Source of the DNA: Tsukamurella asaccharolytica
GTDB lineage: Bacteria > Actinomycetota > Actinomycetes > Mycobacteriales > Mycobacteriaceae
Direction of reading: 5' to 3'
Assembly (NCBI RefSeq): GCF_007858435.1
Contig: NZ_VIGW01000012.1
Span: 32,130-96,129, forward strand
Length of the DNA stretch: 64,000 nt
A program made the translations under genes and the position numbers. Below are positions 40,264-43,751 of the stretch, piece after piece. The notes beneath the pieces were generated by a model. That model did not search any database. It was not told the DNA's origin and saw only the letters and a list, made by a program, of their open reading frames with translations. The first letter of the stretch is position 1; each line of letters opens with the position of its first letter.

Positions 40264-40320
40264 GGGTGGACACCTTAACCGTGCTCACACCCGTTGCGCG
40301 AACCGCCGCGCGTCTGGACC

Positions 40321-41085
40321 ATGGAGCGGGTGACCACAGCCGAGACGACCGTCCCCGATCACTCCGCGCTGCGCTCGGCGGTGTCCGGGGCACGCGCGAT
40401 CGTCGACGTGGGCGTCGTCGTCGCGGTGCTGGTCGCGACCAACCTGGTCGCCCATTTCACCGGCAGCTGGGCCGCGCTGCTGGCCGTCCCGGTGTCCGCG
40501 GTTCTGCTCATCGGCATCGCCCGGCACCGCGGCCTGGACTGGCACGAACTGGGCCTGGGCCGCGAGCACTGGCGCTCCGGGGCGAAGTACGCCGCCGCTG
40601 CGGTCGCCGTGGTCGCGACGGTGATCGTCATCGGAGCCCTGCTTCCCGTCACTCGCGGCCTGTTCCTCAACGACCGCTACGCCACCTTCTCGACCGCGAT
40701 CATCGCGTCGATGGTGATCATCCCGCTGCAGACGGTGATCCCCGAGGAGCTGGCGTTCCGCGGCGCGCTGCACGGCACCCTGTCGCGCGCGATGCACTTC
40801 CGCTGGGTCGTGGTCACGGGCTCGCTGCTCTTCGGCTTCTGGCACATCGCCTCGTCGCTGGGACTGACCAGCGGCAATGCGGGCCTGACCAAGATCCTGG
40901 GCGCCGGCCCGCTGGCACAGTTCCTCGGCATCGCGGGCGCCGTGATCGCGACCGCCTTCGCAGGCTGGGTGTTCACCTGGCTCCGCTCCCGCAGCGGCTC
41001 CCTCCTCGCCCCCATCGCCCTGCACTGGTGCCTCAACGGCGCGGGCGCGCTGGCCGCCGCCTTCGCCTGGCAGCTCCTACGCTGA
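40321..41085 (+). CDS. CPBP-family intramembrane glutamic endopeptidase
   Basis: A 254-residue membrane protein of the CPBP/Abi (CAAX-like protease) family. The three catalytic motifs are present: P-E-E-L-A-F-R-G (E-E-x3-R), F-G-F-W-H and H-W-C-L-N. About seven hydrophobic segments. Substrates of actinobacterial members are mostly unknown; related proteins mature peptides or provide bacteriocin immunity. Start is uncertain: ATG at 40321 is used, with GTG at 40330 and an upstream start at 40294 as options. It is divergent from pimE and precedes a structured repeat. Confidence 0.82.
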   Translation: MERVTTAETTVPDHSALRSAVSGARAIVDVGVVVAVLVATNLVAHFTGSWAALLAVPVSAVLLIGIARHRGLDWHELGLGREHWRSGAKYAAAAVAVVATVIVIGALLPVTRGLFLNDRYATFSTAIIASMVIIPLQTVIPEELAFRGALHGTLSRAMHFRWVVVTGSLLFGFWHIASSLGLTSGNAGLTKILGAGPLAQFLGIAGAVIATAFAGWVFTWLRSRSGSLLAPIALHWCLNGAGALAAAFAWQLLR

Positions 41086-41115
41086 CCCGCCCCGCCGCGC
41101 ACTCGCTTCGCTCGT

Positions 41116-41218
41116 GGCGCTCCCTAGCGGGGCGACCACCTCCCCATGTCCATGGACATGGGGAATGCACGACACGCGATGGCGCAGCACCTCCCTCTAG
41201 GGAGGGCCCGACGGTGCC
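41116..41218. repeat. Structured 103-bp repeat, copy 1
   Basis: This 103-bp unit recurs in the same orientation at 42291-42393 with about 84% identity and no gap. It contains a perfect 24-bp palindrome centred on CCATGG (41141-41164) inside a weaker outer dyad (CTCCCTAG / CTAGGGAG), and it ends in GACGGTGCC. It lies between the CPBP gene and the broken AbiEi-like gene and is not coding. Confidence 0.8.
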
Positions 41219-41239
41219 GGGCGCGCACACCCCCTCGTC

Positions 41240-42153
41240 TCACCCGGGGAACCGCGGGATCGAGGCGATCACGCCGGCGTTGTACATCTGCGTGGTCAGA
41301 ATCGAGTAGAACCGCTTCCGGTCGAGCAGGTCCTCCCACTTCCAATGGCAGACGGTGATCCCGATGGTGGCGAAGTCGCTGTCCCGTCTCTGCTCGTAGC
41401 GCCGACGGTCCGCGTCCGAGCGGCACTTGTCCTCCCCGTCGAACTCCCCGACGAGCCGACCCCAGCAGAAGTCGACGTAATAGGTCCGGCCCCTGATCCG
41501 GAACGTGCGCTGGAGCTCCGGCGGCGGTACTTCCACTGGAGCATCCGAGCCCTCGACCACGATTCCCCCGCGGATTCGCTGCACTCCACGGAGTCCGCGA
41601 GCGCACGGATCACCATGTCGCTGCCCGTCCGCCTGCCGAGCGTTTTCACCACCCGCACCAGTTCCGCGAACGGCACGGTCGGGCGATCCGTGGGCCTGGG
41701 AAACCGCGGGACCTGCCGCGCACCGTCGATCAGGACGAGCGCCTGCTCGTAGTCGCCGGCCATGGCACCGTCGATCGCCGTCCGAGCGAGCGACGTGACG
41801 CGGATCCCGTCGAGGAGGACCACGTCCTCCGGCGGCAGCGGTCGCGGGTGGACATGCCGCTTGCCGCTGACCAGGCCGCCTTTGTGCCGATCGTCGATCG
41901 TGGTGTGCACTCGGGAGTAATCGGGCCTCAGTGCGGGCAGGCCCCACAGCACCGCCGCACTCTGATGGCTGATCACTCCCCAGCCCCCGACGGTGCCGGC
42001 CGCCCGCACCATCCGCTCGTATTCGATCCATGCCTCCCCAACGGACGCATCGGTGTAGATCGTCGGCCACACCATCCGCAACTTCTTGACGCGAATCGCC
42101 TGCCTGATCCCGTTGCGCGTCCACCCCTGCGCGAGCAGTAGATCGCGCGTCAT
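41240..42153 (-). pseudogene. Frameshifted AbiEi/DUF559-like protein
   Basis: From ATG 42153 the frame encodes M-T-R-D-L-L-L-A-Q-G-W-T-R, an AbiEi-like HTH start, then a mid-region with T-S-L-A-R-T-A-I-D-G, reaching R-M-L-Q-W near 41533. There the homologous continuation (P-P-P-E-L-Q-R, Y-Y-V-D-F-C-W, V-G-E-F-D-G-E-D-K, ending C-H-W-K-W-E-D-L) switches frame. Loss of one G in TGG(G)AAG at 41530-41535 would explain it. The C-terminal part resembles DUF559/Vsr-like nuclease folds with D and E-x-D residues. Such proteins are common, variable accessory genes. A sequencing error cannot be excluded. The region 42154-42290 holds no other gene. Confidence 0.75.
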
Positions 42154-42290
42154 CAATTCCCCCATGGGGTCGATGGTGCCGCGCCGCCGCTCCCGCCCCC
42201 TCCTGCCGATCCGCCGAATCAGACCGTCCATCCACAGGACCGCGGTCATCCACAGGCCCCCGCGCGACCGTCGTCGCTCGCTCCGCTCGC

Positions 42291-42393
42291 GGCGCTCCCT
42301 AGCGGGACGGCCACTTCCCTACGTCCATGGACGTATGGAATGCACGACACACGGAGGCGCAGACCGTCCCGCTAGGGAGGGTCCGACGGTGCC
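42291..42393. repeat. Structured 103-bp repeat, copy 2
   Basis: Direct copy of 41116-41218. Here the outer dyad is a perfect 16-bp pair, CTCCCTAGCGGGACGG (42295-42310) with its complement at 42364-42379, enclosing an inner 16-bp palindrome TACGTCCATGGACGTA (42320-42335) extended by flanking pairs with one mismatch. Inner-stem differences from copy 1 include two compensated base pairs. The 3' end merges into the 43-bp tandem repeat. Confidence 0.8.
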
Positions 42394-42522
42394 CGCCCGC
42401 GCCCGCACGTCCCGCTAGGGAGGGCCCGACGGTGCCCGCCCGCGCCCGCACGTCCAGCTAGGGAGGCCCCGACGGTGCCCGCCCGCGCCCGCACGTCCAG
42501 CTAGGGAGGCCCCGACGGTGCC
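42366..42522. repeat. 43-bp tandem repeat, about 3.7 units
   Basis: Units start at 42366, 42409, 42452 and 42495 (last one truncated at 28 bp). Each begins GTCCCGCTAGGGAGG or GTCCAGCTAGGGAGG, continues to CCGACGGTGCC and a CGCCCGCGCCCGCAC spacer. The first unit is the 3' arm of the structured repeat, so the tandem array looks like an expansion of that end. It stops eight bases before the MFS stop codon and may act on that gene's 3' end. Confidence 0.85.
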
Positions 42523-42530
42523 GGCGCGCC

Positions 42531-43751
42531 TCAGCCGACGTTCGACGGTGCGGAGGGTGCGGGCTCGCGTGCCGCGGGCGCGACGATCACCGCGACGGCG
42601 ACGGCGACGAGCACCAGGATCAGTGCGTAGAGCAGCGTGACGTATTCGCCCAGCGCGCCGATGATCGGCGGGCCGGCGAGGAACGAGAGGTAGCCGATGG
42701 TCGAGACCACGGAGACCCGCGCGGCCGCCATGCGCGGCTCGTCGGCCGCGGCGGACATGCCGACGGGAAAGCCGAGCGAGGCACCCAGGCCCCACAGCGC
42801 GACGCCGACGTACGCGGCCTCGGTGGGGCCGAAGATCACCAGCGACAGGCCGAGGAAGGCGAGCACGCCGCAGGCGCGCAATGTCCGCACCCGGCCGTAC
42901 CGGTCGAGCACGCGAGTGCCCGCGAGCCGGCCGATCGTCATGAACACCACGAAGACCGCGAAGGTCAGCGTTCCGACGGTCTTCGACGTTCCGTGGTCGT
43001 CGACCATGGCCAGCGCCAGCCAGTCGTTCGCGCTGCCCTCGGTGAGCGCCATGCCGAGCACCATGAGGCCGATGAGCAGCGTGCGGGGCTCGCGCCACAC
43101 CGAGAGGCGCTCGCGGCGGGAGACCGGCGCGTGGTCGTCGGCGTCGTGCGCCCGGAAAGGCACGTGCCGCAAGGCGAACCACCCGGCGACGAGCAGGACG
43201 CCGTTCACGGCGAGCAGGTGCGGCAACAGCGGCACGTGGGTCGCCTGGGCTGCGGCGGCGAGGAGCGCGCCGGCCACGGTGCCCAGCGAGAAGGCGGCGT
43301 GGAAGGCCGGCATCACGGTGCGCCCCAGCGCCCGTTCGTTCTCCGCGCCGGAGAGATTCATGCACACGTCGGTGATGCCGTGCGAGAGCCCGACGAACAC
43401 CAGCGGCAGCAGCGTGAGCGCGTAGTTCCCGGACTGCGCCCCGGCGGCGGCGGCGATCATCGTCACCCCCAGCGCGGGCAGGGTCACGGCGATAACCCGC
43501 CGGGCGCCGAACCGCGCGGCCAGGGCACCCGACCCGACGAGCCCCACCACCGAGCCCACGGCCAGACCGAAGGTGAGCAGGCTGACCTGCAGCGTCGTGG
43601 CCCCGAGGTCGTCGCGAACCTGCGGCAGGCGCCCCAGGTAGCTCGCGAAGGTGAGCCCGCTCAGCGCGAAGATCACCGCGACGGCGTTGCGCCAGGCGAG
43701 CACCGAGCTGCCCGCCGCGTCCGCCTTCTGCTCCTGGAGGTCCGTGGTCAC
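42531..43751 (-). CDS. MFS transporter (YbjJ-like)
   Basis: A 406-residue major facilitator with twelve predicted membrane segments and the motif-A-like G-A-L-A-A-R-F-G-A-R-R between helices 2 and 3. The S-G-L-T-F-A-S-Y-L-G-R-L-P start and the G-L-S-H-G-I-T-D-V-C-M-N-L-S-G segment resemble YbjJ-type proteins, related to FucP-like sugar carriers. Its substrate is unknown. It is divergent from a LacI-family repressor with a palindromic operator between, suggesting control by a sugar-like effector. Confidence 0.85.
   Translation of the reverse strand: MTTDLQEQKADAAGSSVLAWRNAVAVIFALSGLTFASYLGRLPQVRDDLGATTLQVSLLTFGLAVGSVVGLVGSGALAARFGARRVIAVTLPALGVTMIAAAAGAQSGNYALTLLPLVFVGLSHGITDVCMNLSGAENERALGRTVMPAFHAAFSLGTVAGALLAAAAQATHVPLLPHLLAVNGVLLVAGWFALRHVPFRAHDADDHAPVSRRERLSVWREPRTLLIGLMVLGMALTEGSANDWLALAMVDDHGTSKTVGTLTFAVFVVFMTIGRLAGTRVLDRYGRVRTLRACGVLAFLGLSLVIFGPTEAAYVGVALWGLGASLGFPVGMSAAADEPRMAAARVSVVSTIGYLSFLAGPPIIGALGEYVTLLYALILVLVAVAVAVIVAPAAREPAPSAPSNVG

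Follow-up and report, generated by a model that had tools for sequence, protein, structure and literature searches.

Small palindromic repeats are usually read as relics of REP sequences or as MITEs, and their structure as RNA. Bacterial MITEs are small, non-coding elements with inverted terminal arms and without coding capacity, and dyad-symmetric sites of the operator or parS type offer a further comparison. REP sequences are described as being 20–40 bp in length and carrying a GTAG or CGTC tag. According to the reports drawn on here, they usually exceed 100 copies per genome (PMC2817692), lie preferentially between convergent and tandem genes (PMC3733652), and are landing sites for insertion sequences (PMC1525189); placement at gene ends or between convergent genes is, in such accounts, typical of palindromes to which a function in RNA is ascribed (PMC3733652, PMC1590033).

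Here, we describe what is very probably a low-copy, Tsukamurella-restricted family of ~88-bp extragenic palindromic elements that are inherited mostly vertically and lie at gene 3′ ends. Within open-licence literature on Tsukamurella repeats and actinobacterial intergenic palindromes, we found no paper title describing this family. The DNA analyzed (the window) is a stretch of 64,000 nt from Tsukamurella asaccharolytica, and its relevant features, including two copies of the element, are as follows (model R1 and the site numbers S are explained below):

40294–41085, (+): upstream flanking gene, CPBP/Rce1-like protease (PF02517, E 8.4e-16)
41102–41114, (+): companion motif CTCGCTTCGCTCG upstream of copy 1
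41120–41207, (+): copy 1 of the 88-position element, site S0 (model R1, 104.7 bits, E 3.7e-17; in the model's seven-copy building set)
41120–41135: left outer arm of copy 1, core CCCTAGCGGG
41141–41164: inner dyad of copy 1, TCCC-CAT-GTCCATGGAC-ATG-GGGA
41189–41204: right outer arm of copy 1, CCCTCTAGGG (family form CCCGCTAGGG)
41240–42249, (−): AbiEi-like gene between the copies, frameshifted, with two frames each holding part of the gene
42277–42289, (+): companion motif CTCGCTCCGCTCG upstream of copy 2
42295–42382, (+): copy 2 of the 88-position element, site S3 (model R1, 105.6 bits, E 2.4e-17; in the building set)
42295–42310: left outer arm of copy 2, 16/16 complementary to 42364–42379
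42316–42339: inner dyad of copy 2, TCCC-TAC-GTCCATGGAC-GTA-TGGA
42364–42379: right outer arm of copy 2
42365–42529, (+): 43-bp tandem array of the right arm plus CCGACGGTGCC, 3.8 units, continuing the right end of copy 2 (Tandem Repeats Finder)
42531–43751, (−): downstream flanking gene, MFS transporter, convergent with the CPBP gene (PF07690, E 6.7e-24)

The original prediction had described ungapped, ~84% identical direct copies of 103 bp, sharing an inner palindrome and flanking a broken AbiEi-like gene, with a perfect 16-bp outer stem in copy 2, and all of this holds. Specifically, 41116–41218 and 42291–42393 are identical at 87/103 positions without gaps, and the match extends to 117 nt at 85% (99/117, 84.6%; 41102–41218 and 42277–42393; plus-strand self-BLAST, E 1.4e-30), with the array at 42365–42529 as the one further plus-strand self-match in the window at E ≤ 1e-6. 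The exact inner palindrome measures 24 bp in copy 1 (41141–41164) and 16 bp in copy 2 (42320–42335), while the outer stem is complementary at 12/16 and 16/16 positions, respectively. The two inner-stem pairs said to differ by compensated substitutions do so when the two window copies are taken as a pair. The letters GTCCATGGAC occur twice in the window, once per copy, against a shuffle mean of 0.04 and a higher-order Markov expectation of 2.0. Insertion linked to tRNA genes was rejected, with none found in the window.

A BLAST search with copy 1 returned seven good matches in the T. asaccharolytica genome, and a covariance model of 88 positions (R1) built from these seven copies located nine copies there, with seven further model rows covering these copies on the opposite strand or in part. 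At E ≤ 0.01, R1 matched 10 of 16 Tsukamurella genomes and none of the other six (G001, G007, G008, G012, G013, and G015); the per-genome maximum was 12 rows, opposite-strand rows counted, and most positive genomes held two to nine clear copies. The covariance-model search proposed with the original prediction therefore found further copies in both the genome and its relatives, and the reading as a repeated, palindromic, non-coding element is borne out by the nine own copies and the 10/16 positive genomes. Merging the 73 model rows left 60 places: 12 rows read a retained place on the opposite strand, and a single weak match (G005:C3:933835–933922, E 0.0094) was left out; relatives are given here by genome number, G000 being T. 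asaccharolytica. A 22-letter pattern had 16 matching stretches in a contig collection, every one from Tsukamurella (T. asaccharolytica records may be left out of this count), and matched 9/41 genomes, including 0/25 outside the genus. Under stricter filters, R1 matched 7/151 Mycobacteriaceae genomes, all of them Tsukamurella, one genus of the 31; no copy outside Tsukamurella was found by pattern in the 25 genomes or by model in the family genomes of these 31 genera.

The element sits just past gene 3′ ends, with the same neighboring genes in many species of Tsukamurella. It is extragenic between convergent or tandem genes at 58 of the 59 places that could be classed; the 60th place lies at a contig end. 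With gene orientation taken from a simple codon-usage caller and the background limited to the 56 gene pairs of this single window, flanking genes were convergent at 36 places, tandem at 22, and divergent at 1, compared with 12 convergent, 33 tandem, and 11 divergent background pairs. The excess of convergence is significant by copy (Fisher p 2.5e-5), where copies at one site are not independent, and also by site (9/15, p 0.008), where site S1, with places of both orientations, was assigned to the convergent class by majority (4/7). In comparison, the deficit of divergent spacers by site is not significant (0/15 versus 11/56, p 0.10). The flanking genes are ordinary and share no common function (PPK2 and LtrA, PknG and an ABC ATPase, NUDIX and a ThiE-type gene, ferritin and TetR, and others).

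Grouped by their flanks, the 60 places fall into 15 syntenic sites, 11 in at least two species and four in a single one, and at 13 of the 15 the element stands alone, without a gene enclosed. Mean identity is 85.2% between orthologous copies, 82.0% between copies from different sites in one genome, and 80.9% between the others. Because 11/15 sites are common to at least two species, we regard the family as old and mostly vertical, and site S0 itself must be old, since it is also occupied in the deep branches G010 and G009. Recent mobile insertion, as a reading of the copies, is not supported, most of them being at orthologous positions. In G009, the two flanking copies are identical at 67/69 positions in columns 20–88, which suggests that conversion or duplication may have acted there. 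In G004, G014, and G010, the distance to dnaA was measured for 21 places and never exceeded 1.23 Mb; we give this little weight, since conserved genes may cluster there anyway.

It is improbable, in our view, that the copies are dormant non-autonomous transposons (MITEs) whose conserved parts are transposase recognition sites with no host use, even though the element has defined ends with inverted arms and 6/16 genomes lack any model match. A filled/empty pair also speaks for that origin: site S5 is occupied in G011 and empty in its sister G002, the difference being 89 bp with CC at both edges and a target duplication that is not clear beyond 2–3 bp. However, the site is filled in relatives outside the pair, which makes a deletion in G002 no less likely than an insertion in G011, and on the tree the empty site is explained at least as well by this loss. 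G001 and G012 have no detectable copy though nested on the tree among element-bearing species, where two of the nodes placing G001/G012 and G014 have support of 0.73 and 0.82. Against a MITE origin, most copies occupy orthologous positions in different species and are not scattered, and BLAST revealed no longer element with the same ends in the T. asaccharolytica genome. The Y1 (RAYT) transposase domain PF01797, a search that covers Y1 transposases only, was found in 0/16 genus genomes, some of them drafts, with the control positive in 5/14 named genomes. Membership in the REP/RAYT system was rejected on this absence in 16 genomes together with the low copy number (nine here).

The compensated changes had been taken as evidence for selection on pairing, and this argument fails in the larger sample. 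Among the 49 of 60 copies with exact GTCCATGGAC (a slightly different set from the 49 used below), the three variable inner pairs hold 81 Watson-Crick cells, compared with ~77 expected by shuffling (p 0.23), so that they pair no better than shuffled columns. Column, pair, and flank statistics rest on the ungapped 88-position copies outside G009 and G010 (49/60). For pairs 26–41, 27–40, and 28–39, covariation p values were 0.26, 1.0, and 0.45, and allowing G-U (0.38, 1.0, and 0.53) did not change the outcome. Over the whole proposed structure (49 rows, with one G010 copy added and G011:C200:230080 left out), 91.6% of cells pair, compared with 91.2% after shuffling; the covariation score was reached by 58/500 shuffles, and the 19 both-sided changes (shuffle mean 12.9) by 52/500. 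Among the 26 pairs tested, the edge pair 1–85 shows covariation (p 0.006). Membership among structured RNAs on the basis of stem covariation was rejected, no such covariation appearing over the 49 copies apart from this edge pair.

In contrast to pairing, individual letters are strongly conserved. The 49 of 88 columns without any variation among the nine own copies reach 97.1% identity in 57 ortholog pairs excluding T. asaccharolytica. In the same pairs, the remaining 39 columns reach 71.7%, a value similar to or lower than that for fourfold sites in the adjacent CPBP gene (76.7%); the 30-nt flanks are 68.8% identical, compared with 56.9% when shuffled. Homogenization by itself would not pick out particular columns in this way. 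Many fixed columns form dyads, such as TCCC-N3-GTCCATGGAC-N3-GGGA; since the 36 dyad columns were chosen after seeing the data, the figures relied on are the cross-validated 49-column ones. The outer and central letters of the inner dyad are nearly fixed, and its two N3 stretches vary without covariation. Read from the outside inwards, both half-sites are mainly Y-A-B (on the right, its reverse complement), with letters that vary independently between the two, and with exceptions among the 49 copies of one on the left and, on the right, one at the first letter and nine at the second. Columns 3–12 and 74–83, the terminal inverted arms, are nearly fixed and complementary, and a stretch to the right of the inner dyad (approximately columns 47–58) is conserved without being symmetric. 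Base-specific conservation independent of pairing, as looked for in protein-binding dyads, is thus present. Evolution holds specific letters constant, not base pairing, and this hints more at a protein-binding mark than at an RNA fold.

The main rival to base-specific DNA recognition is action in RNA, with the element serving as a 3′-UTR hairpin that ends transcription both ways between convergent genes or protects mRNA ends, which we consider somewhat unlikely. The position just past stop codons and between convergent genes fits such a role, as does folding: both window copies, on both strands, fold more strongly than dinucleotide shuffles (z −3.8 to −7.2). By eye, the inner dyad is lengthened to a 58-bp perfect palindrome at G002:C110:42642–42702, a lengthened palindrome variant occurs at G011:C200:230080–230167, and such long perfect palindromes in two relatives would suit a hairpin as well. 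However, no T-run accompanies the element, a search for terminator-like hairpins followed by T-runs finding 0 sites on either strand of 41080–42540, and no Rfam family reached its gathering score anywhere in the window. Furthermore, the four central letters, which a hairpin would place in its loop, hardly vary, whereas pairs within the stem do so without compensation. Some copies nevertheless look, by eye, as if selected for structure, namely the long palindromes in G002 and G011 together with copies of G009 in which inner pair 30–37 has changed symmetrically from T-A to A-T.

The gene between the window copies is confirmed as frameshifted, and in five relatives it is a single open frame of 308–346 aa (G002, G004, G006, G010, and G014; in G009, the frame is shorter with a different end). 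PADLOC AbiEi models match two of these open relatives (best E 6.5e-11 and 2.6e-13), while Pfam and NCBIfam contain no model matching the two at E ≤ 1. Altogether, 7 of the 15 genomes compared have the gene, namely these six and T. asaccharolytica (G000). Without it, the CPBP-MFS spacer is short or non-coding in G001, G008, G011, G013, and G015, and has longer inserts in G003, G005, and G012 (with ORFs listed for G012 and G003); what the spacer holds, a point raised in the original prediction, therefore differs from species to species. By eye, the G013 spacer contains an element-like stretch, yet without a model match at E ≤ 5, and the G011 spacer contains an insertion-sequence end (model E 0.29). 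In the G015 spacer, CTCCCTATAGGGAG and GGACTCCCC...GGGGAGTCC were seen by eye in an element-like layout with other letters.

This variation, with the enclosed gene in 7/15 genomes and absent or replaced in others, is what speaks for the copies as boundaries of a replaceable gene cassette of an integron- or recombination-like kind. That explanation, raised in the original prediction, is by now largely refuted and extremely improbable, since 13/15 sites are solitary, the spacers of G003, G005, and G012 hold other genes with no element match at E ≤ 5, and the flanked gene is identical in kind in all seven genomes having it.

Shared letters also occur beside the element. For 24/60 copies, CTCGCTNCGCTCG is found in the 40 nt upstream; with both strands counted, this motif matches the window twice, at the two copies. 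GACGG[TG] follows within ~25 nt downstream of 28/60. As a rough control, within 60 nt of 55 gene 3′ ends in the window, GACGG[TG] on either strand was found at 14/55 and CTCGCTNCGCTCG at 1/55. At site S6 in G014 (C2 around 785914), the right arm and downstream letters are also arrayed, as three shorter units by eye, so that arrays of this make-up are seen at two unrelated sites. In T. asaccharolytica, gene ends often carry letters resembling CCGACGGTGCC (e.g., 41208 and 42383). Such letters sometimes form inverted pairs (site S5 in G002 and G011) and could be a terminator-type hairpin of the genus. In G001, which lacks the family, CGACATCTCAGCG occupies spacers at two of the same sites and is perhaps a different, lineage-specific repeat.

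One of the own copies appears to carry an insertion sequence with the ends TGTGATGTCCAGGGA within CTAG. Contig C7 starts with the TGTGATGTCCAGGGA end followed by CCTAGC, and CCTAGC precedes the end on C74, as expected of a 6-bp duplication; the two contigs would thus join around the insertion sequence. Its ends were seen at four contig ends in all (C7 start/C74 start with CCTAGC, C4 end/C42 start with TCTAGA), and from these ends and the NCTAGN target we take it to be IS481-like. NCTAGN is the target given for an IS481-family element of Rhodococcus in one report (PMC6794481).

Taken together, we propose a genus-restricted family of gene-end palindromes that is kept by protein recognition of linked dyads in double-stranded DNA, a statement to which, as a whole, we assign a probability of roughly 45%. 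Copies would be inherited mostly vertically and lost by deletion. A candidate protein, probably a dimer, would recognize TCCC-N3-GTCCATGGAC-N3-GGGA in the middle and CCC-N4-GGG arms outside, and the bound element would mark or insulate the junction between opposing transcription units. The two-fold symmetric recognition site is suggested by N3 half-sites that share restricted letters and drift separately. Judged from sequence, protein recognition taken by itself has a little less than an even chance of being the mechanism; the conserved non-symmetric columns (~47–58) would not be explained by a simple dyad, and the lack of a common function among the flanking genes counts against a protein mark. 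We consider it unlikely, if worth stating, that the elements are landmarks for a putative Tsukamurella DNA-binding protein marking the borders of convergent units, lost jointly with its sites in lineages such as G001/G012. If so, the dnaA proximity of all 21 measured places would suit a role in organizing the origin-proximal half.

With its low copy number and sites that stay fixed throughout the genus, the family allows selection on letters to be told apart from selection on pairing, and it is letters that are selected. If a protein binds the sites, Actinobacteria would have a gene-end mark of a new kind, and the element-free lineages would provide a natural way to look for the binder. If none does, the family offers a clean example of two compensated copies that suggest an RNA structure which a larger sample contradicts.

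The element belongs to a real, old, genus-restricted family of gene-end palindromes with an anatomy of a known, REP- or MITE-like kind. With REPs and BIMEs, it has in common a short extragenic palindrome placed between convergent or tandem genes, and the landing of an insertion sequence is likewise known for REPs; unlike them, it is 88 bp long and present in two to nine clear copies in most positive genomes. As in MITEs, it is small, non-coding, and bounded by inverted terminal arms, but it occupies fixed syntenic sites, and the search for a Y1 transposase partner found none in 16 genomes. The combination of fixed sites with conservation of letters, not pairs, is what sets the family apart. 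Operator- and parS-like sites share with it the near-invariant palindromic core and the degenerate symmetric half-sites that vary independently, whereas the Tsukamurella element is much longer, links three dyads, and lies past the ends of genes rather than before them.
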